Shown: one piece after another, positions 45,016 through 59,179 of the stretch
Layout of the letters: each line of letters starts with the position of its first letter
Numbering within the stretch: the first letter of the stretch is position 1
Notes under the pieces: generated by a model
Told to the model about the DNA's origin: nothing
Database searches by the model: none
Seen by the model: only the letters and a program-made list of their open reading frames with translations
Source: Oscillospiraceae bacterium
GTDB lineage: Bacteria; Bacillota; Clostridia; Oscillospirales; Acutalibacteraceae
Length of the DNA: 64,000 nucleotides
Assembly (NCBI GenBank): GCA_022650485.1
Contig: JALCPP010000003.1
Span: forward strand, 186,001 to 250,000
Direction of reading: 5' to 3'
Made by a program: the position numbers and the translations under genes

Positions 45016-45055
45016 TTAAGTAATGAATCATAACAAATATAAAAGGGGAAAAACA

Positions 45056-46456
45056 ATGAAATTTTGTGACCGGCCCTTTAACAGCATTCACATTTTACCC
45101 GGAGGTGATGTCTGGGCATGTGGATGGATGCATTTGAAGTTTGGTAACCTGGTTAGTCAAAGTCTTCCGGAAGTGTGGAACAGCAAAATGGCCCAAAAAG
45201 CCAGAGAGTCCATTTTAGACGGTTCCTTTCGCTATTGCCGCAAGGAATCCTGTCCGTTTCTTGAAAATGATTCTTTGCCGGATCTTAATGAAGAACAGGT
45301 AAGAAATCAATCGATTTTGACGGAGGTTCCTTCACAGGGCAGCATCGCCTGCGACTTTACCTGCAATCATATGTGTCCGTCCTGCCGGTCAGAAATATTT
45401 CAACCCACTGAAAAATATGAAAATGATTTACATACAATTATTTCGAGGCTTTTTCCGTATATCAATCGGTTCAAAAAAATGACTACTAATGGCAACGGTG
45501 AGGTATTTGCAAGCAAGCAGCTCATGGAAATGCTTGCGAGATTGCAGCCTGAAAACCCGGATTTTCAGTTGAATCTTGAAACAAACGGGTCGCTGTTTGA
45601 TGAAGCGCATTGGAAACAAATCTCTCATCTTGAAAAGTACGAGATCAGTACGACTGTGACTCCGAACAGCTTTGAAACGGATACATTTAAATATTTAAGC
45701 GGCGGGGATGCCGATGTGGACAGACTGACTCATAATCTTGCTTTTATCAGGGATTTACGGGATACCGGAAAAATCAATCATTATTTCGTCTCCATTGTTG
45801 TGCAGGACCGCAATTTCAGAGAGCTTCCCTCTTTCACGAAACGGTGTTTAGAAGAATTTCATGTTGATGAAGTTGTCATTAAGCCTGTTTATCAATGGTT
45901 TGGTATGAAAGAGGATGTTTACTGGTTTAAAAATGTCCGCAACCCGCTTCATCCTTATTTTAATGAATACAGAGAGATGCTTCGGGATCCGGTGTTTGAT
46001 GATCGGCATGTGTTTTTCTGGGGCAATAGAAAAAATATGACAGCTTCCAAGTCCCATCCGGCATACCAGTACAAAATCAATGAGGATATTCTTCTAGAGC
46101 TGATAAAAGTTCCGGATGCCGGTACACAGCTCTGCGCGGCGCTTAAAAAACTTGGATGCACAAAGGTGGCCGTTTATACCCCGGAGGATCAAATGGGGGT
46201 GCTTCTTGCCGACTTTCTGACGAGGGGCGGTTTGACTCCAAAATGTTTTTTGCAAAGATTTTTTCCAAAAGAGACGAAAAAAAATGGTTTGCCTGTTTAC
46301 GGTTTTCCAGATATGGATTTTCAAGCGGTTGATATGATTCTTGTTACAGATGATTACCATCTGGAAAAAGTTTCAAAAGATATCCAAAACAGTCATTACA
46401 CCGGTAAAATTCTTTCGTTTCAGGAGTTAACAAAGTTGGCTGGTGAGCGGGGATGA
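45056..46456 (+). CDS. Permuted radical SAM protein with Rossmann-like tail
   Basis: A 466-residue protein with an unusual domain order. Residues 1-70 look like a SPASM segment (FCDRPFNSIHILPGGDVWAC, WMHLKFGN, then YCRKESCPF). The radical SAM cluster motif follows at C103-N-H-M-C107-P-S-C110. A SAM-barrel body extends to about residue 345, and from about 346 comes a Rossmann-like domain (ALKKLGCTKVAVYTPEDQMG, DMILVTDDYHLEKVSKDI). In most family members SPASM is C-terminal. The tail resembles the core of the next gene product. It starts at ATG 45056, 8 bases after AAGGGG, and overlaps the next start by 4 bases. Confidence 0.78.
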   Translation: MKFCDRPFNSIHILPGGDVWACGWMHLKFGNLVSQSLPEVWNSKMAQKARESILDGSFRYCRKESCPFLENDSLPDLNEEQVRNQSILTEVPSQGSIACDFTCNHMCPSCRSEIFQPTEKYENDLHTIISRLFPYINRFKKMTTNGNGEVFASKQLMEMLARLQPENPDFQLNLETNGSLFDEAHWKQISHLEKYEISTTVTPNSFETDTFKYLSGGDADVDRLTHNLAFIRDLRDTGKINHYFVSIVVQDRNFRELPSFTKRCLEEFHVDEVVIKPVYQWFGMKEDVYWFKNVRNPLHPYFNEYREMLRDPVFDDRHVFFWGNRKNMTASKSHPAYQYKINEDILLELIKVPDAGTQLCAALKKLGCTKVAVYTPEDQMGVLLADFLTRGGLTPKCFLQRFFPKETKKNGLPVYGFPDMDFQAVDMILVTDDYHLEKVSKDIQNSHYTGKILSFQELTKLAGERG

Positions 46457-47001
46457 AGGCTAGAAATTCGGCGTTACTCGCTGGAGCCGCCGCTTTAGGA
46501 GCAGGTGCGTTGGTAAAGTACTTATGGAAGCAGAAGTACAGAGAAGAAAACAAGCTTGTGAAACAAAACGAAAAAAAATATTGGCTCTATTATCATTGGA
46601 TTCTTTTGAAACATCATCGTGTCGGGTTGGACCAATACTTTCAAAACAGGGAAATCCACAGTGTTGCCGTCATGGACCTGTCACCGCAGGGACGTCAGCT
46701 TATCTCAGAAATTGAAGGAACGAATGTAACAGTCAGCTATGCAATTGAAAAAGAAAATCTGGCGGCAGTCCATGAGACGTTGCAGGTTCTGCGCCTGCAT
46801 GAGGATGCGCTCCCGAAGGTAGACGCAGTTGTTCTCTGCTCACTGAATGACGTTAAACGGGTGAGTGAAGAAGTTACCCGGGAAGTAAATGCCGAGTGCA
46901 AGGTGATTGCGCTGGAAACGGTTATCCTGGATTCTTTAAAAGATAATCACTTGGGATTTCAAGACGGTGTATTACGCTCTTCACCTTATTCAGGTGAATG
47001 A
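46453..47001 (+). CDS. Membrane-anchored Rossmann-like protein, function unknown
   Basis: A 182-residue protein with an N-terminal hydrophobic stretch (ALLAGAAALGAGALVKYLW), a basic helix and a Rossmann-like C-terminal domain (HSVAVMDLSPQGRQLISEIE, VDAVVLCSLNDVKRVSEEV). The last segment resembles the tail of the preceding radical SAM protein. The family is unknown to me. Start overlaps the radical SAM stop by 4 bases (ATGA), so the two are co-translated. A membrane-bound partner of that enzyme would fit. Confidence 0.6.
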   Translation: MKARNSALLAGAAALGAGALVKYLWKQKYREENKLVKQNEKKYWLYYHWILLKHHRVGLDQYFQNREIHSVAVMDLSPQGRQLISEIEGTNVTVSYAIEKENLAAVHETLQVLRLHEDALPKVDAVVLCSLNDVKRVSEEVTREVNAECKVIALETVILDSLKDNHLGFQDGVLRSSPYSGE

Positions 47002-47044
47002 AATTAGATTAATCAGTCCTAGAAAAGTGGAATCGGGTGATTAT

Positions 47045-47947
47045 GTGTCAAAAACTAAAATTTTGATTACCGGCGCCGGTGGCCTGATCGGCAGTGAACT
47101 TGTCAGGCAGTTGTCCATAAATAATCATTTTGAACTTTATGCTTTAACTTCCGGTTACCGACAGCGAAATTTTCCCGGCAATGTTCACCACATTACGGCC
47201 GATTTGCTCCGGAATGGCCAGTGTCGTCAAATGATAGAAACGGTTGAACCGGATATCTTGATTCATCTGGCATGGGATTTGTCAGATGAAAAATTTATAA
47301 ATGCGTTGCAAAATCTGTTGTGGCAGGAAGTTAGTCTGCAGCTTCTTTATAATTTTATAGAGCACGGCGGAACAAAATTTGTGTTTGCCGGTTCCAGTGC
47401 AGAGTATGGTACAATGTATCGGCAGTGTTCGGAAAATCTTTTGTTGAAACCGGAAAATCTTTACGGCAGGTGCAAATCTTCGTTTGAAGAAACAGCAGTA
47501 AATGCCTGTAAAGAAAGGAATTTAAGCTTTACAAGTATTAGATATTTTCCGGTTTATGGTGAAAAAGACATCCGGAAAAAAGCCGCGATTCCAGAATCAA
47601 TCCGCAGCTTTATGGCGGGAAAGCCTTTTTTATGCAAAGCCCCGGAAAACGTGTGGGATTTTATTTATGTGGAAGATGCGGCAGAAGCTACCGTGAAGAT
47701 ATTAGAAAGCGGTTTTACCGGAAGCATCAATGTTGCCAATGGGATTCCTTTGAGAATGCGCGATGTTTTTCATGAAATTGCGGCTCAGATGGATTGTGAG
47801 GAATTGCTTGCCTTTTCCAAGAATCGTCAAAGTGAATCGTTGGTAGCGGATACGTCGTTGTTGCAGAATCAAATAGGTTTTTTGTGTAGAATATCGCTGA
47901 GGGAAGGTCTGCGGAGAACAATCAAGTGGTGGAAAGCGAAAGGATAG
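47045..47947 (+). CDS. NAD-dependent sugar epimerase/dehydratase
   Basis: A 300-residue extended SDR: KILITGAGGLIGSELVRQL at the start, FAGSSAEYGTM and the catalytic YGRCK (YxxxK), then a sugar-binding half ending in IKWWKAKG. It most resembles nucleotide-sugar 4-epimerases or reductases. The chosen start, GTG 47045, has GGGTG 5 bases upstream and begins right before the Rossmann domain. Its substrate is not fixed by sequence; a 4-keto-6-deoxy sugar or UDP-glucose/galactose are possible. Confidence 0.8.
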   Translation: MSKTKILITGAGGLIGSELVRQLSINNHFELYALTSGYRQRNFPGNVHHITADLLRNGQCRQMIETVEPDILIHLAWDLSDEKFINALQNLLWQEVSLQLLYNFIEHGGTKFVFAGSSAEYGTMYRQCSENLLLKPENLYGRCKSSFEETAVNACKERNLSFTSIRYFPVYGEKDIRKKAAIPESIRSFMAGKPFLCKAPENVWDFIYVEDAAEATVKILESGFTGSINVANGIPLRMRDVFHEIAAQMDCEELLAFSKNRQSESLVADTSLLQNQIGFLCRISLREGLRRTIKWWKAKG

Positions 47948-47954
47948 ACGTGTT

Positions 47955-49124
47955 TTGAACTATGATTTGATCATTGTGGGCTGTGGATTAACAGGCAGTA
48001 CAATTGCTTATCTTGCAGCAAACAGAAAAAACCTTCATGTTCTTTTAATAGAAAAACGCAGCCATGTGGGGGGGAATCTGTACGACGAAACGGACCCTGA
48101 CACAAAAATCGTAGTGCAGAAATATGGCCCTCATTCTTTTCATACAGACAAAAAGGCTGTGTATCGTCTGATGTGTGAAGTGGGCGGCTGGGAACCATAT
48201 ACGTTGCGTGCCAGAGTTAGGATCAAGGGCAGGCTGACCCCGTCTCCCTTTAATTTTAAAACAATTGATACCTATTATTCAGCCGATCGTGCGAAACAAA
48301 TCAAAAAACATCTTGTCGATGAATTTGACTACGCACCTAAAGTAACGATTTTACAGATGCTGAACAGTACAGACCCGGTTATCAAGGAGTATGCGCAGTT
48401 TCTGTTTGAAAATGATTACAAGCCGTATACAGCCAAACAATGGGGGATTTCTCCTGAAGGACTTGACCCGATTGTATTGAAAAGAGTGCCTGTAAGGCTG
48501 TCATATACGGACGCATATTTTGATGACCGGTATCAAATGATGCCTGAGGGAGGATTTACGTCATTTTTCAGGAAAATGCTGAAAAACCGGTTGATTACTG
48601 TACAGACGGGGGAAGATGCTTTAGACCATATCCGCCCCGGGGCGGGGGGAACGTTGCTTTTTGACGGTGAGCCTCTCCAAATACCGGTTGTGTACACAGG
48701 CGCGCTTGACGAGTTCTTTGGATGCTGTTTTGGCCAACTGCCGTATCGTTCCCTGCGCTTCAAATATCAAACGCTGAATATGGCCAGCTTTCAGGAAACG
48801 TCGGGGGTCGCTTATCCCATGGCGGACGGATTTACACGAATTACCGAATTTACAAAGCTGCCATACCAGGACGGTCACGGTAATACAATAGTGGCTTATG
48901 AATATCCTGAGCCGTATGGGACGGAACAGGGTAGAATTCCCTATTATCCGGTGCTGACTGAAAACTCGGAAAAGGCTTTTGAATGTTACAGGAGGAAAGC
49001 CTCTGAATATTCATATCTCTTTCCGTGCGGCCGACTCGCGGATTTTCGCTATTATAATATGGACGATGCCGTTGAGCGTGCCATGGAAATGTTTGATATG
49101 TTATTGAAAAGCAAAGTGATGTAG
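47955..49124 (+). CDS. glf: UDP-galactopyranose mutase
   Basis: An FAD enzyme of 389 residues that interconverts UDP-galactopyranose and UDP-galactofuranose. Motifs: YDLIIVGCGLTGSTIAYLAA (FAD-binding), KRSHVGGNLYDE, YGPHSFHTDK, NDYKPYTAKQWG and RYQMMPEGGFTSFF. It starts at a TTG (47955), 8 bases after the epimerase stop. Galactofuranose in a Clostridial surface glycan is implied. Confidence 0.95.
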   Translation: MNYDLIIVGCGLTGSTIAYLAANRKNLHVLLIEKRSHVGGNLYDETDPDTKIVVQKYGPHSFHTDKKAVYRLMCEVGGWEPYTLRARVRIKGRLTPSPFNFKTIDTYYSADRAKQIKKHLVDEFDYAPKVTILQMLNSTDPVIKEYAQFLFENDYKPYTAKQWGISPEGLDPIVLKRVPVRLSYTDAYFDDRYQMMPEGGFTSFFRKMLKNRLITVQTGEDALDHIRPGAGGTLLFDGEPLQIPVVYTGALDEFFGCCFGQLPYRSLRFKYQTLNMASFQETSGVAYPMADGFTRITEFTKLPYQDGHGNTIVAYEYPEPYGTEQGRIPYYPVLTENSEKAFECYRRKASEYSYLFPCGRLADFRYYNMDDAVERAMEMFDMLLKSKVM

Positions 49125-49154
49125 CAATTGACCATGAAGATGGAGGCGGATAAG

Positions 49155-49964
49155 ATGAAGATTGATTATGCAGAAAAAGCAAAAGAGTTACGCCGCTCGA
49201 TTATTACAATGTTGCATGATGCAAATGGATCATTCAGCGGAGGAGCCTTGAGTTGTACAGATATTATCACCGTGCTGTTTAACAGTTTTATGCGGGTCAA
49301 TCCCCAAAATCCCAATGATCCGCAGAGAGATATGTTTATTCTCAGCAAAGGGCATTGTTCGTCTGCTATGTATGCGGCACTTGTTTCAGTTGGGTTAATA
49401 CCAAAAAATGAATTAAAAAAATATGGAAAAAACGGTACGCGGATGTTTATTCATCCGAAACGTGGAACATATCCTGGGGTAGAAGTCAGCACCGGCTCTC
49501 TTGGCCATGGCTTGCCGCTGGGAACAGGCAGTGCACTGGCTGCTAAAATTTTGGGTTGTGATGCCAGAGTTTATGTTCTGATGGGAGACGGCGAATGCAA
49601 CGAAGGTTCGGTTTGGGAAAATGCGGCTTTTGCATCTTTTCAAAAGCTGAACAATCTCATTGTCATTGTAGACCGCAACGGTCTTCAGGGATGTGGGAGA
49701 GACAGCCAGATCTTAAATTATGGGGATATGGGGGCAAAGTTCCGCGCGTTTGGATTCCACACAATTGATATTGATGGCCATAGTTACGCAGAAATTGAAA
49801 ATGCGTTTCAACAGGCAACCACACTGCATCAGGATCGGCCGACAGCGATTATTGCACACACGGTGAAGGGCAAGGGCGTTTCCTTCATGGAAGATCGTTT
49901 GGAATGGCATTACAAATCTCCGGATGATGAGCAATTTTCAGCTGCAATGGAGGAACTATCATGA
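49155..49964 (+). CDS. Transketolase-like protein, N-terminal subunit
   Basis: The thiamine-diphosphate (PP) half of a split transketolase, 269 residues: LSKGHCSSAMYAALVSVG, GSLGHGLPLGTGSAL and the GDG-(x)-N cofactor motif in VLMGDGECNEGSVWENAAF and VDRNG. The partner half is the next gene, overlapping by 4 bases. Start: ATG 49155 is 8 bases after GGAGG. Its place beside CDP-sugar genes rather than pentose-phosphate genes suggests transfer of a two-carbon unit to a keto sugar; this is inference. Confidence 0.88.
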   Translation: MKIDYAEKAKELRRSIITMLHDANGSFSGGALSCTDIITVLFNSFMRVNPQNPNDPQRDMFILSKGHCSSAMYAALVSVGLIPKNELKKYGKNGTRMFIHPKRGTYPGVEVSTGSLGHGLPLGTGSALAAKILGCDARVYVLMGDGECNEGSVWENAAFASFQKLNNLIVIVDRNGLQGCGRDSQILNYGDMGAKFRAFGFHTIDIDGHSYAEIENAFQQATTLHQDRPTAIIAHTVKGKGVSFMEDRLEWHYKSPDDEQFSAAMEELS

Positions 49965-50884
49965 GAAATCTTTTTGTTGATGAGATTTATAAAATGATGG
50001 GCGAGGACAGCGGGATTGTCTTTTTGACAGCTGAATGCGGGTTTAACGTGGTCGAAAAGATAGAGCGGAAATATCCTGAGCGGTTTTTCAATACCGGCAT
50101 AGCAGAGCAAAGTTTGGTGGGTACGGCTGCCGGTGTTTCTCTGCGGGGGCTGAGGCCGGTTGCGTATACCATGGCAATGTTTCTTGCCATGCGTGCCTAT
50201 GAGCAAATTAGGGATGATGTCGCCTATCAGAATCTTCCTGTTGTGTTGGCCGGTGTTATCCCGGGGCTTGGCTATGGAAATTCAGGAACTACCCATCATG
50301 CGGTGGAAGACACTGCACTGATGAGGATTCTTCCGAATATGACGGTGGTTTACCCGTCGTGCGAAACGGATGTCAGAACTTTGACGAGAAAAATATTTCA
50401 ACGAAACACCCCGTGTTATATCGGCCTTGCGCGCGCGTCTGCGGATTATCAGCCAAATTATGATGCGGGTGCCATTGAAATTGGAAAGGCCATTCAGTTG
50501 ACTCCTGGAAGAGATGCCGCACTTTTCGCCTTTGGCTCCATGATTCCTGCTGCGGTGCGGGCGGCGGATATTCTGAAAAAAGATGGTATTGGTTTGAGCG
50601 TGTATAACATGCACACGGTAAAACCGCTTGATGCAGAGGCTGTTCGCAAGGCCGCAAAAGAATGCGGCTTGATTTTTACCCTCGAAGAGGAGAATGTCCT
50701 TGGGGGGCTTGGAGGAGCCGTTGCAGAGATTCTTGCGGAAGAGAAGAATGTTTCCTGCCAATTGAAAAGACTTGGTATTCCGGACGAGTATTGTGATGTA
50801 AATGGTACTCAGTCATGGCTTCATGTTCATTATGGCATCGATGCGCAAGGAGTGGCGGCTGCGGTAAGGGAGAAACTTAAATGA
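49961..50884 (+). CDS. Transketolase-like protein, C-terminal subunit
   Basis: The pyrimidine-binding and C-terminal half of the split transketolase, 307 residues: RFFNTGIAEQSLVGTAAGVS, with the conserved Glu that activates thiamine diphosphate, GVIPGLGYGNSGTTHHAVED, and a C-terminal domain (VYNMHTVKPLDAEAVRKAA). It overlaps the N-terminal subunit and the following CDP-glucose dehydratase by 4 bases each, so all three are translationally coupled. The two subunits together form one active site. Confidence 0.88.
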   Translation: MRNLFVDEIYKMMGEDSGIVFLTAECGFNVVEKIERKYPERFFNTGIAEQSLVGTAAGVSLRGLRPVAYTMAMFLAMRAYEQIRDDVAYQNLPVVLAGVIPGLGYGNSGTTHHAVEDTALMRILPNMTVVYPSCETDVRTLTRKIFQRNTPCYIGLARASADYQPNYDAGAIEIGKAIQLTPGRDAALFAFGSMIPAAVRAADILKKDGIGLSVYNMHTVKPLDAEAVRKAAKECGLIFTLEEENVLGGLGGAVAEILAEEKNVSCQLKRLGIPDEYCDVNGTQSWLHVHYGIDAQGVAAAVREKLK

Positions 50885-51954
50885 CTCTCGCCAGTGAGGT
50901 AAATAAATCATTTTACTGCGGAAAACGGGTTTTTGTAACTGGGAATACCGGGTTTAAGGGTGCGTGGTTGACCGCAATCTTGCACGAACTGAAAGCAAAA
51001 GCCAGAGGATATGCTTTAAAACCGGAAAAGGGCAGCTTGTATGAAAAAATAGCAGGGGATCAACTGATTGACAATATTTATGGCGATGTGCGTGATGGAG
51101 ATGCTTTAACCACTGCTTTGTGCAGCTTTCAGCCGGAAATTGTAATACATCTTGCAGCAATGGCAACGGTAAATGAATGTTATATGTATCCACGAGATGC
51201 GTATGAAACCAATGTAATGGGTACGGTCAATCTGCTGGAAGCGGTGAAATCGTGCGAAAATGTTAAAAGTGTGGTCATTGTAACGACCGATAAAGTCTAT
51301 GACAATAAAGGGGACGGTGCGATTTACAAAGAAACCGATCCTTTGGGCGGCAATGACCCATACGCAAGCAGCAAAACATGTATAGAATATATTGTCAATG
51401 CCTATCGACACTCTTATTTGCAGACCAATACAAGGATGACGGGCGTGTCTACCGTTCGAGCCAGTAATGTTTTGGGCGGCGGTGACCACATTCAGACGCG
51501 GCTGATACCGTCTTTACTTCAGTCTTTTGCAGACGGAAGCGAAATCAAGCTCCGCCATCCTTCCCAAACAAGGCCGTGGCAGTCGGTTTTGGATGCGCTG
51601 AATGGTTACTTGACTGTTGCAAGAAAAATGGTACAATCGCCCCAGAAATATTCCAGCCAATGGAATATTGGTCCGGTAAAAGATGGGATAAAAAGTGTAT
51701 TTTGGGTAGTGAAAAAAATGCAGCAGTGTTATCACAACTATTCTGATTATGAATTTGCAAATGAGATTGAGGTGCAAGAATCCTCCACCCTCGGTCTGGA
51801 TATTTCAAAATCGCTTCAGTGCCTCGGCTGGAAACCGGAAATGAGCTGTGCGGAGTTGTTTTCAGAAATTGTGAATTTCTTTCAGCAGCAGCAGGCGGGT
51901 GTGCCGGAGCGGGATATTTGTTTAGGGCAGGTGAAAAAATTTTACAGAATATGA
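50881..51954 (+). CDS. rfbG: CDP-glucose 4,6-dehydratase
   Basis: A 357-residue extended SDR: GKRVFVTGNTGFKGAWLTAI, HLAAMATVNECYMYPRDAYE, VIVTTDKVYDNKGDG and DPYASSKTCIEYIV with the catalytic Tyr and Lys. It converts CDP-glucose into CDP-4-keto-6-deoxyglucose, the entry to CDP-dideoxy and branched sugars. GNTGFKG and TTDKVYDN are features of RfbG rather than of RmlB. The matching cytidylyltransferase is at 53907. No RfbH (3-dehydrase) gene is present. It overlaps both neighbours by 4 bases. Confidence 0.9.
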   Translation: MTLASEVNKSFYCGKRVFVTGNTGFKGAWLTAILHELKAKARGYALKPEKGSLYEKIAGDQLIDNIYGDVRDGDALTTALCSFQPEIVIHLAAMATVNECYMYPRDAYETNVMGTVNLLEAVKSCENVKSVVIVTTDKVYDNKGDGAIYKETDPLGGNDPYASSKTCIEYIVNAYRHSYLQTNTRMTGVSTVRASNVLGGGDHIQTRLIPSLLQSFADGSEIKLRHPSQTRPWQSVLDALNGYLTVARKMVQSPQKYSSQWNIGPVKDGIKSVFWVVKKMQQCYHNYSDYEFANEIEVQESSTLGLDISKSLQCLGWKPEMSCAELFSEIVNFFQQQQAGVPERDICLGQVKKFYRI

Positions 51955-52877
51955 AAAAGGCAATTGTAGTAGGTGGAGCCGGTTTTGTCGGCAGTGCTGT
52001 GGTAAGGGAACTGATTGCTCGCGGCGTTGAAACGTGGGCTGTCGTCAGACCAGGGTTTGGGGTAAAAAAAGCGAACCACCGATTGGATGGATTAAATGTA
52101 CATATCATCGAGTGTGACTTGAAAAATATCAAAAATATGACGGATATTTTTACGGATAGCCCGGTTGATGTTTGGTATCAATTTGCCTGGGATGGTTTAT
52201 TTAATGGTCCTTTGCTTGACTATACAACGCAGATTATGAATGTTAAGTATGCGATGGATGCTGTAGAAACTGCGGCAAAACTAGACTGCAGAAAGTTTAT
52301 AGGCGCAGGGAGCATATCTCAGTATGAGCTGGAAAGATGCAGAAGTCAGGTCGATCGGAGGGATAAGCACCAGGTTTACAAAGCTGCAAAAGCTGCATGT
52401 GAGTACATGGGGCTTAGTGTTGCTGCAAAAAATGGAATCAGCTTTATCTGGCCAATCATAACAAATATTTTCGGACCGGGAGAGAATTCCCCCCGGCTGA
52501 TTAATACGATGATACGCAACTTGATTCAAGGAAAGAGGCAATCGCTGAGCGAGGGGAATCAGTATTATGATTTCATATATATTTCAGATGCAGCAGCAGC
52601 TTTTGTTGACATAGGGGAGAGTGGAAAAACGGCAGGGCGTTATGTAATCGGCTCCGGGCAAGCGCAGCCGCTTAAAAATTTTCTTTTTCAGCTTCGCAAT
52701 ATTGTTTCGCCGAACGCTGAACTTGGATTTGGAGAGATGGAGTTCAATGGTATTTATCTTCCGAAACAATGTTACGATATCACTGAATTGACGGATGATA
52801 CCGGCTTTATGCCGAAGGTTGTTTTTGCGGAAGGAATCAAAAAGACAGCAGAATGGATCAGAAAGGAATTGGTATAA
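51951..52877 (+). CDS. NAD-dependent sugar reductase/epimerase
   Basis: A 308-residue extended SDR: KKAIVVGGAGFVGSAVVREL, YQFAWDGLFNGPLLDYTTQI, and the catalytic YKAAK in HQVYKAAKAACEYM, then WPIITNIFGPGENSPR. It resembles ketoreductases of nucleotide-sugar pathways. Following CDP-glucose dehydratase it probably reduces a keto group (C4) of the CDP sugar. Start: ATG 51951 overlaps the dehydratase stop by 4 bases. Confidence 0.83.
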   Translation: MKKAIVVGGAGFVGSAVVRELIARGVETWAVVRPGFGVKKANHRLDGLNVHIIECDLKNIKNMTDIFTDSPVDVWYQFAWDGLFNGPLLDYTTQIMNVKYAMDAVETAAKLDCRKFIGAGSISQYELERCRSQVDRRDKHQVYKAAKAACEYMGLSVAAKNGISFIWPIITNIFGPGENSPRLINTMIRNLIQGKRQSLSEGNQYYDFIYISDAAAAFVDIGESGKTAGRYVIGSGQAQPLKNFLFQLRNIVSPNAELGFGEMEFNGIYLPKQCYDITELTDDTGFMPKVVFAEGIKKTAEWIRKELV

Positions 52878-53118
52878 TTCAAAAACCATGTATATTTTCC
52901 TGCTGCTTTTGAAGAAGACCAATTTGGTGCGAGTCGTGATAAAGTGTTCCGGGGAAGAAATGTTTTTATATCCAATAGTAGCCCGTAAAGCGCTTCCAGG
53001 ACGGGGAGGACTTGGTTGCTGCTGTATTTGTTCGTATGAGTTGTCAGTTAGAGAAATGTAATGGCTGCTAAATAGAATTTCTTTAGAGACGGAACAAAAC
53101 GGAAATGGGGGTATTGAT
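52878..53118. other. Gap with in-frame protein-like stretch
   Basis: The 241 bases after the reductase gene contain, in the same frame right after its stop, 36 codons reading FKNHVYFPAAFEEDQFGASR and then RDKVFRGRNVFISNSSP, before another stop. The composition is protein-like, but I know no match; it may be a lost C-terminal extension or a remnant. The last bases hold the ribosome binding site of the next gene. Confidence 0.3.
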
Positions 53119-53895
53119 ATGGAACAATTGGTCATATTGGCAGGCGGACTGCCAAGCTCCATCAATGACGATCCACAGCAAATTCCGAAACCTATGATTG
53201 ATATAGGGGGAAGACCTTTGCTTTGGCATATTATGAAGTATTATTCTCAGTTTGGCATACGTGATTTTATTATTTGTGCAGGATATAAGTCGGATGTGAT
53301 CAAACAATATTTTCTGAACTATTACATCTATCGTTCTGATATAACGATTGATTTGTCTAAAAATAAAGTTGAGCTCCATAATAAAATAACCGAGCCATGG
53401 TATGTTACAGTGCTTGACACAGGGATTCATGCAACGACTGCTTCCCGCATCAAACAGGTGGAAGACTATGTGGAGAATGATGTATTTCTGATTACATATG
53501 GTGACTGTCTTTCTAATATTTCAGTGATTGATTTAAAAAATTTATTTAAAAGCAGCCATAAAACGATGACGGTTGCGGCGGCCGCGCCAACAGGGCGGAA
53601 TAAAGTGCTCAATATCAGCAGTTCTGGTAATATTTGTGTAGAAAAAAATCAAGCGGATTCAACGACTTCCTGGACAAATGCATGTACTATGGCTGCAGAT
53701 CATCGTATTTTTCATTATTTAAATCATGATGATATATTTGAAACTGAAACAATCCAAAAACTTGCGGCTGTCCATGAGACAAATGTGTTCTACCACCACG
53801 GCTTTTGGTGCCCCGTGGAAACCGTAAGGGACAAAAACTATGTAGAAACTCTTTGGAATCATAAAAAAGCACCATGGAAAATCTGGAATGATTGA
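53119..53895 (+). CDS. Degenerate glucose-1-phosphate cytidylyltransferase paralogue
   Basis: A 258-residue sister of the next gene product, matching along its whole length (KPMIDIGGRPLLWHIMKYYS, FIICAGYKSDVIKQYFLNYY, YHHGFWCPVETVRDKNYVE). The nucleotide-binding signature GGxGTR is lost: it reads LAGGLPSSINDDPQQIPKPM, and the later catalytic TYGDGVGDVN is TYGDCLSNIS. It probably cannot transfer CMP. It may be an allosteric or assembly partner of the intact enzyme. It ends 11 bases before that gene. Confidence 0.78.
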   Translation: MEQLVILAGGLPSSINDDPQQIPKPMIDIGGRPLLWHIMKYYSQFGIRDFIICAGYKSDVIKQYFLNYYIYRSDITIDLSKNKVELHNKITEPWYVTVLDTGIHATTASRIKQVEDYVENDVFLITYGDCLSNISVIDLKNLFKSSHKTMTVAAAAPTGRNKVLNISSSGNICVEKNQADSTTSWTNACTMAADHRIFHYLNHDDIFETETIQKLAAVHETNVFYHHGFWCPVETVRDKNYVETLWNHKKAPWKIWND

Positions 53896-53906
53896 CAGGT
53901 GAAAAG

Positions 53907-54683
53907 ATGAAGGTAGTTATTTTAGCTGGCGGTAAAGGGACGAGGTTTGTAGAAGAAACGGTTTACAAGCCAAAGCCTATGATAGAAATCTGTGGGAAGC
54001 CAATATTGTGGCATATTATGAACTGGTATGCATCTTTTGGATATACAGAGTTTATCATCTGTTGTGGCTACAAAGGAAAGATGATAAAAGAATATTTTTT
54101 AAATTATTTCATGGAAAATTCCAGCGTTCGAATTGATCTTCAGACTGGCAAACTTCACTGGCTTTTTGGTTCTGTTGAACCGTGGAAAGTGACGCTTGTT
54201 AATACTGGATTGGATACTCCGACTGCTGGAAGACTGCTGCAAGTGAGAAAATATATTGACAGTGACACGTTTATGCTTACATATGGGGATGGAGTGGGTG
54301 ATGTGAATATCAATGAGCTGCTGCAATATCATCACAGCAGCGGCAAGATAGCAACAGTTTCCGTGACGAAACCAGAGGGTCGATTCGGCGCCGTGAAAAT
54401 TGATGACCAGACGGGTTTGGTACAGGGTTTCCGAGAAAAGGCGCGTGTTGATCAGTCTTGGGTGAATATTGGTTTTGCCGTGTTTTCCACAGATGTTTTT
54501 GATTACTTGGGCAATGGCAGCAGTATGTTGGAACAGAGGCCATACGAAAAACTTGCAGACGATGGTCAGATGTCCGCCTATCATCATCAAGGTTTTTGGT
54601 CACCGATGGATACGATTAAAGATAAGTTGTACCTTGAAAATCTGGTGAAAAGTAACAATGCGCCTTGGATTGTCAAACGTTGA
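53907..54683 (+). CDS. rfbF: Glucose-1-phosphate cytidylyltransferase
   Basis: RfbF, 258 residues, makes CDP-glucose from CTP and glucose 1-phosphate, the donor for CDP-glucose 4,6-dehydratase. Intact motifs: VVILAGGKGTRFVEETVYKP and KPMIEICGKPILWHIMNWY, LTYGDGVGDVNINEL and HHQGFWSPMDTIKDK. It starts at ATG 53907 behind AGGTGA; a TTG 15 bases earlier is less likely. Last gene of the island. Confidence 0.92.
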   Translation: MKVVILAGGKGTRFVEETVYKPKPMIEICGKPILWHIMNWYASFGYTEFIICCGYKGKMIKEYFLNYFMENSSVRIDLQTGKLHWLFGSVEPWKVTLVNTGLDTPTAGRLLQVRKYIDSDTFMLTYGDGVGDVNINELLQYHHSSGKIATVSVTKPEGRFGAVKIDDQTGLVQGFREKARVDQSWVNIGFAVFSTDVFDYLGNGSSMLEQRPYEKLADDGQMSAYHHQGFWSPMDTIKDKLYLENLVKSNNAPWIVKR

Positions 54684-58684: not shown

Positions 58685-59179
58685 GTAAGGCAATTGCCCG
58701 ATCGGACAGAGATTGTCATTGAATTGCCCCAAAAGCCGCATCTCTGCCCATGCTGCGGACATAAAACCAGCAATATTCATGATTACCGTTGGCAAACGGT
58801 AAAAGATATTCCCGCCTTTGGAAAACACACGGTTTTGATATTCCGAAAGCGACGATATCGCTGCCCTTCCTGTGGAAAACGTTTCTTTGAAGAGAACTCA
58901 TTTCTGCCACGATATTACCGCATAACAAACCGGTTTGCTGCATACATCATTTCAAAGCTCACGGATGTGCGTTCCTTTACCAGCGTAGCCCGTGAAAGTA
59001 ACCTTTCTGTTTCAACCGTTATCCGTATCTTTGATTATATCGATTATGGAAAACCAAGGCAGCTGCCCGCAGTTGTCTCCATCGGTGAATTCAAAGGCAA
59101 TACGGGCAGAGAAAAATATCAATGTATCCTCACAGACCCGTTACAGCCATCAGCTTACAGGATATTTCAGCCAGCTTGA
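58685..59179 (+). pseudogene. ISL3-family transposase remnant
   Basis: Zinc-finger part CPCCGHKTSNIHDYRWQTVK and RYRCPSCGKRFFEENSF, HTH part TSVARESNLSVSTVIRIFD, then LPAVVSIGEFKGNTGREKYQ. The first DDE aspartate (normally SIDEFKG) is a Gly, and the frame stops at the start of the catalytic domain. The 5' end is also missing. Confidence 0.8.

Follow-up and report, generated by a model that had tools for sequence, protein, structure and literature searches.

What does a two-subunit transketolase do among genes for sugars activated with cytidine diphosphate (CDP)? The question is raised by a locus of an Oscillospiraceae bacterium (assembly GCA_022650485.1, contig JALCPP010000003.1), which was analysed within a stretch of 64,000 nucleotides, here called the window. 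On its + strand, positions 49128-52877 hold four genes with a 4-base overlap at each of the three junctions. They encode an N-terminal, thiamine diphosphate (ThDP)-binding transketolase subunit (TktN, 49128..49964), a pyrimidine-binding and C-terminal transketolase subunit (TktC, 49961..50884), a CDP-glucose 4,6-dehydratase (RfbG, 50881..51954) and a reductase/epimerase of the short-chain dehydrogenase/reductase type (SDR 'b', 51951..52877). This arrangement had been pointed out in an earlier note, and both coordinates and profile scores agree with it. We conclude that the split transketolase pair probably puts a two-carbon branch on surface sugars. The best reading, for which we infer acceptor, donor, site and product and to which we assign a probability of a little under 0.6, is ketol transfer onto a CDP-4-keto sugar, the locus being a CDP-sugar cassette that would provide a surface polysaccharide with a branched-chain sugar.

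Gene order and predicted functions

Families were assigned by Pfam and NCBIfam profile searches (NCBIfam cut-offs of 278 bits for TIGR02622, 300 bits for TIGR02623 and 304 bits for TIGR00031). TktN matches Transketolase_N (PF00456, 141.6 bits) and has the split transketolase 6YAK as its closest solved structure (E 5e-73); TktC carries Transket_pyr (PF02779) and Transketolase_C (PF02780) and matches the solved structure 6YAJ (E 3e-55). The ThDP/PP domain lies in TktN and the Pyr and C-terminal domains in TktC, the division of the split form, and the motifs GDGECNE (ThDP GDG) and GIAEQ (catalytic Glu) are present. Judged by domains and catalytic residues, TktN and TktC make up a complete split transketolase. 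TktN starts with TTG, an in-frame ATG following at 49134. RfbG scores 361 bits with TIGR02622, aligns with the solved CDP-glucose 4,6-dehydratases 1WVG/1RKX (E 7e-83) and retains the TDK and YxxxK catalytic motifs; SDR 'b' matches Pfam Epimerase with 115 bits. Because the upstream gene for UDP-galactopyranose mutase (Glf, 47955..49124, + strand, 347 bits with TIGR00031) stops only 3 bases short of the TTG start codon of TktN, the tight run comprises five genes.

The cytidylyltransferase that the earlier note had placed after the run turned out to be two RfbF-type genes on the + strand, set apart by a gap of about 240 bases. The first (53119..53895) stays under the cut-off of TIGR02623 with 276 bits, and the second (RfbF, glucose-1-phosphate cytidylyltransferase, 53907..54683) passes it with 341 bits and contains GxGTR; its open reading frame (ORF) opens at TTG 53892, with an ATG at 53907. 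In the alignment with 1TZF the first gene has AGGLPSSI in place of GxGTR, and it is the only RfbF of the compared set that deviates. An intact RfbF lies directly downstream. The paralogue is probably inactive or altered; it could be a partner without catalytic function or a gene copy in decay. By sequence, the cassette has the enzymes for CDP-glucose (RfbF) and for the 4-keto-6-deoxy sugar (RfbG).

Linkage of the pair to CDP-sugar genes

Relatives were collected by scanning 84,980 species genomes with TktN alone, which yielded 80 loci. The linkage that the earlier note had suggested searching for is indeed present: RfbF/RfbG lie within 9 kb of the pair in 33 loci (32 of the 80 found by TktN similarity, and the window). 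These CDP-linked loci come from about nine phyla, namely Bacillota, Acidobacteriota, Thermodesulfobacteriota, Nitrospirota, Fibrobacterota, Pseudomonadota, Bdellovibrionota, Planctomycetota and a candidate phylum, the assignment of L006 to Acidobacteriota resting on a metagenome-assembled genome. A further locus, assigned to Bacteroidota (L020), is almost the same as one of Blautia; a binning error may explain it. RfbG is rare in Clostridia (29/291 genomes; 0/11 sampled genomes of the same family or order), yet RfbF/RfbG are near the pair in all these loci; therefore, the linkage exceeds chance. A chance neighbourhood was ruled out by the linkage over phyla and by permuted gene orders.

In a tree of the joined subunits (quick search, with support by the SH-like approximate likelihood ratio test, SH-aLRT, only) the window's clade of 17 rows (SH-aLRT 99) is CDP-linked throughout (17/17), and the CDP-link label requires 7 changes vs 26 in shuffles. 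Four unlinked rows within CDP-rich groups (L023, L027, L032, L038) are on contigs that end shortly upstream. The earlier note had named frequent occurrence of the pair away from CDP-sugar genes as a finding that would speak against its proposal; such occurrence was found in part for relatives below ~45% identity and not in the window's clade.

There are at least 12 loci in which RfbG overlaps the pair or directly adjoins it (window, L005, L006, L007, L012, L014, L015, L016, L020, L025, L028 and L055), and in L008-L010 Glf alone stands between RfbG and TktN, also overlapping. Since RfbG precedes TktN in Lachnospiraceae and follows TktC in the window's subclade, its adjacency to the pair has survived reordering. 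The order RfbF-RfbG-RfbH-(0 or 1 gene)-TktN-TktC-SDR occurs in Geobacter, Nitrospirae, Chitinispirillales and the Clostridia genome G252 (L101), and RfbF-RfbG-RfbH followed by TktN-TktC and then SDR also in L034 and L047. Commoner among 28 other Clostridia RfbG loci is a cassette that has a YerE-like enzyme at the place of the pair, for example RfbG-RfbH-YerE-like-SDR in L099 and L102. The YerE-like family was recognised through one relative; its best solved match is 8RPH, which is mentioned in the JanthE paper (PMC12188165). In the isolate Paenibacillus plantiphilus (L030 9071-10825), SDR and TktN are fused in one ORF of 584 amino acids (SDR 13-315, TktN 314-580), located in an RfbF-RfbG-methyltransferase cassette. 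An apparent SDR-TktN fusion in L037 was rejected as an open-frame artefact in high-GC DNA, the two frames being different, and L030 is the only true fusion. C-methyltransferase-like genes accompany the pairs of L024 and L040 and, as judged by eye, that of L030.

RfbH, described earlier as absent, is absent from the window and from the own genome, where the best match is an ordinary DegT protein (30% identical). This does not extend to the whole system, as RfbH occurs in 15/32 other CDP-linked loci, including L005 among the window's closest relatives. A YerE-like enzyme was not found in the own genome either, its matches being only 29% identical and at the level of acetolactate synthase.

Active site of the transketolase pair

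The own genome contains three TktN genes besides that of the window. Two belong to canonical split pairs (L001, L002), and the third (L003; L095 6063-9376, C4) to a split transketolase whose sugar operon also encodes an FGGY kinase, an ABC transporter and an alcohol dehydrogenase. Likewise, all six isolate genomes with CDP-linked pairs encode other transketolases, full-length in five and a canonical-type split form in Fonticella, where the type was assigned by score and length only. By sequence, the window's TktN/TktC are distinct from the housekeeping transketolases.

Pairs were aligned with E. coli TktA, whose numbering is used here. The catalytic Glu E411 and H473 are retained in all 33 CDP-linked pairs, and H461, D469 and R91 are present in 0/33. 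All three of the latter are found in L001, L002 and 6YAK/6YAJ. TktN of the window keeps the GDG motif, H66, H100 and H261, with H26 replaced by F and R91 by G; TktC keeps E411 and H473, with H461 replaced by I and D469 by S. At H461, D469, R91 and H26 the window's pair thus reads I, S, G and F and lacks the residues of the pentose-phosphate type. The change of H26 to F is common to the window's subclade (window, L005, L006, L007, L011). R91 is the salt-bridge partner of D469. In E. coli transketolase, H461 is associated with phosphate binding and D469 contacts H26 and R91; D469S/T/A variants make better use of non-hydroxylated acceptors, H461S has higher activity with aldehydes that carry no phosphate, and selectivity is reversed by H26Y and D469Y (PMC3657141, PMC5073344). 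The loss of R91, H461 and D469 fits a ketone or an otherwise unusual acceptor, and it is shared by transketolases of apiose operons, whose reaction involves a ketone. As a mark of CDP-sugar use, the loss of H461 and D469 was ruled out, since pairs of other polysaccharide loci and of apiose operons share it.

Proposed pathway

The earlier idea that the pair is the ThDP branching enzyme of a CDP-keto-sugar pathway is favoured by the linkage, the contact with RfbG, the YerE-like positions, the fusion and the residue loss; its chemistry we infer as follows. With a ketose phosphate or hydroxypyruvate as donor, TktN/TktC would pick up on ThDP a two-carbon ketol unit at the glycolaldehyde level. Addition of this unit to the C4 ketone of the CDP-keto sugar would create a tertiary alcohol with a hydroxyacetyl branch (CDP-6-deoxy-4-C-glycoloyl-hexose), and the SDR would then reduce the branch ketone to a 1,2-dihydroxyethyl group. 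Since the own genome lacks RfbH, the C3 hydroxyl would be kept in its product. Glf may turn the product into a furanose, which is less certain. The pair would thus fill the role that YerE, an unrelated ThDP enzyme, plays in yersiniose, but with a hydroxylated branch. Because a transketolase adds C2H4O2, the expected product is +60.02 Da heavier than CDP-4-keto-6-deoxyglucose, and +62.04 Da after reduction. The shift of 42-44 Da predicted earlier must be corrected, as 44 corresponds to the acetaldehyde unit of a YerE-type reaction.

Beyond this locus we speculate, with slightly more doubt than confidence, that there is a widespread class of split transketolases for CDP-4-keto sugars that lacks the R91/H461/D469 network and, across about nine phyla, supplies surface polysaccharides with octoses branched at C4 by a hydroxyacetyl or 1,2-dihydroxyethyl group. 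Such enzymes would have replaced YerE several times, and in the window's subclade the change H26F together with Glf would point to a different stereochemistry and possibly to a furanose.

Alternative explanations

Several observations weigh against ketol transfer onto a CDP-4-keto sugar. Viewed from RfbG, a non-canonical pair stands beside RfbG only in L101 among the 28 other Clostridia RfbG loci. A distant non-canonical pair is located 7 kb from RfbG in L114; the transketolase near RfbG in genome G135 (L119) is canonical, with THAGLTVGEDG kept, and its nearness was taken as coincidence. In the window's clade, seven loci of Lachnospiraceae/Oscillospiraceae (L008, L010, L014, L015, L017, L025, L026) hold both the pair and a YerE-like enzyme some kb apart, several with a DegT-type gene, so the YerE-like enzyme could use the keto sugar there instead. 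The loss of R91, H461 and D469 is seen also in pairs linked to HldE/GmhA, LuxC/LuxE and apiose genes and therefore cannot by itself name the acceptor. The main doubt concerns SDR 'b', whose sister group in the SDR tree (SH-aLRT 100) is found in RfbF-RfbG-SDR cassettes that continue with a PF00908 (RmlC-type 3,5-) epimerase and have no ThDP enzyme. Because these nearest relatives belong to cassettes without a branching enzyme, SDR 'b' may reduce C4 rather than the branch, and the part of the earlier note that assigned it to the branch is weakened to that extent.

The grouping of SDR 'b' would be expected if RfbF, RfbG and SDR alone made an unbranched CDP-6-deoxyhexose and the pair had as substrate a different carbonyl compound of this polysaccharide, for instance an aldehyde or a further nucleotide keto sugar. 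The association of related pairs with LuxC/LuxE and HldE/GmhA genes, which implies that acceptors differ, points in the same direction. We consider this explanation unlikely, though it deserves serious attention. The window's cassette lacks the PF00908 epimerase, and the direct contact of RfbG with the pair in at least 12 loci is often found without SDR 'b'. In addition, relatives of SDR 'b' are paired with YerE-like enzymes in other cassettes, so that an SDR of the same family accompanies a branching enzyme, and in L030 one relative forms a single protein with TktN.

The fold and catalytic residues seen here would also be those of an ordinary pentose-phosphate transketolase that is only a resident of a polysaccharide island or provides the island with a sugar phosphate. 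The window's pair retains R358 and R520, both of which help to bind phosphate, and the pairs linked to HldE/GmhA could supply sedoheptulose 7-phosphate. However, H461, D469 and R91 are lost, H26 too in the window's subclade, whereas the two canonical split pairs of the own genome keep these residues. CDP-glucose synthesis requires no transketolase product, and the pair remains beside RfbF/RfbG across phyla. Such a housekeeping role is quite improbable.

Still more improbable is branching of the CDP-keto sugar with another donor, either pyruvate (acetyl branch, as with YerE and the split pyruvate dehydrogenase (PDH)-type enzymes that serve octoses of antibiotics) or a hydroxylated 2-keto acid of greater length: YerE-like enzymes do accept keto acids from pyruvate up to C8 (PMC12247030), TktC scores 187.9 bits with the DXS profile vs 181.5 with that of transketolase, and H26, which is F in the window's subclade, contacts the substrate in E. 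coli transketolase (PMC3657141), but TktN is closest to transketolase and not to DXS or PDH E1, and the DXS preference of TktC is also seen in the catabolic pair L095.

Comparison with known systems

The proposed ketol transfer to a CDP-4-keto sugar is closest to the yersiniose A pathway (RfbF-RfbG-RfbH-YerE and a reductase), which shares the entry through CDP-glucose, the 4,6-dehydratase, a ThDP enzyme that forms a C-C bond and an SDR, in the same order as in several relatives. Unlike here, with a split transketolase in a genome without RfbH, YerE is a decarboxylase-type ThDP enzyme that acts on pyruvate (PMC12247030). Hydroxyacetyl transfer to a keto sugar has been proposed for the split transketolases of miharamycin and amipurimycin biosynthesis (PMC12247030), which resemble our pair in this proposed reaction and serve nucleoside antibiotics of Streptomyces. 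According to a review of 2025, this type comprises 13 candidate sequences, all from Streptomyces and none tested in vitro (PMC12247030). The split PDH-type ThDP enzymes of the avilamycin, paulomycin and trioxacarcin octoses also have two subunits and put a two-carbon branch on a keto sugar (PMC4753412, PMC12247030), but belong to the PDH-like superfamily, use thymidine diphosphate sugars and transfer an acetyl unit. The split transketolase of Carboxydothermus hydrogenoformans (6YAJ/6YAK) shares the two-chain architecture and is the nearest solved structure, but keeps H26, R91, H461 and D469. The apulose-4-phosphate transketolase (AptA/AptB type) likewise has split subunits and has lost R91, H461 and D469; unlike the window's pair, it keeps H26, is part of a catabolic operon with an FGGY kinase and handles a small phosphorylated substrate, no nucleotide sugar.

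To our knowledge, no ketone-accepting transketolase has been shown to form a tertiary alcohol in vitro. In the review of 2025, which deals with ThDP enzymes that give tertiary alcohols, YerE-like decarboxylases are described for lipopolysaccharide sugars and PDH-type pairs for antibiotics; branching of surface polysaccharides is credited to YerE-like enzymes only, and ketone-accepting transketolases are ranked among the most promising (PMC12247030). In our literature search, which left most subscription journals outside, no paper connected transketolase to CDP-glucose pathways or to the biosynthesis of branched-chain sugars, O-antigen or polysaccharides; for transketolase together with glucose-1-phosphate cytidylyltransferase, one unrelated paper came up. 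Thus, the reaction type was already proposed in another setting, but neither the CDP-linked class nor its wide distribution seems to have been described before. If the proposal is true, many testable enzymes would be available from ordinary isolates, and their active-site changes would match those obtained by directed evolution of E. coli transketolase. It would also predict that gut and environmental bacteria contain a class of branched octoses, for which structural work could search.

Related pairs and genomic surroundings

Related pairs occur in other gene settings as well. In a sister group, LuxC/LuxE-type acyl reductase genes and an SDR gene, often with a radical-SAM gene, lie beside the pairs of L044, L056, L059, L060, L066-L068 and L077 (checked with Pfam for L056 only); these pairs may act on aldehydes made from acids. 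HldE-like (PfkB and cytidylyltransferase) and GmhA-like (SIS) genes lie beside the pairs of L018, L035, L050, L052, L054, L064, L070, L076, L083 and L084, possibly for heptose-related sugars. Pairs of apiose operons (Listeria, with a Pfam Apiosidase gene in the operon) are without R91, H461 and D469, as are the related pairs of Rhizobium and the own genome. The apulose-4-phosphate transketolase of such operons cleaves a tertiary alcohol and thereby sets free a ketone, dihydroxyacetone phosphate. Since the Listeria operon holds the Apiosidase gene, apiose use is likely for the own-genome catabolic pair L095, which is related to the Listeria and Rhizobium pairs.

Upstream of Glf lies SDR 'a' of the NAD-dependent epimerase/dehydratase family (46967..47947, + strand, Pfam Epimerase 118 bits). 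Its homologues adjoin the transketolase pair in L005, L006, L007 and L011, so this partner is conserved in the window's subclade. It is preceded by a gene for a 182-amino-acid protein (46453-47001) with no Pfam or NCBIfam match, which overlaps by 4 bases with a radical-SAM/SPASM-type gene (45023-46456). The product of the latter weakly resembles metalloenzyme maturases and, at the cut-off applied, did not match Radical_SAM of Pfam. Near the island, a transposase-like ORF lies at 58694, and ParA/ParB-like genes follow from 59464. Across the island (40-56 kb of the window) the GC content is 0.39-0.46, lower than the mostly 0.50-0.55 around it, which suggests that the island, lying near a mobile element, was acquired.

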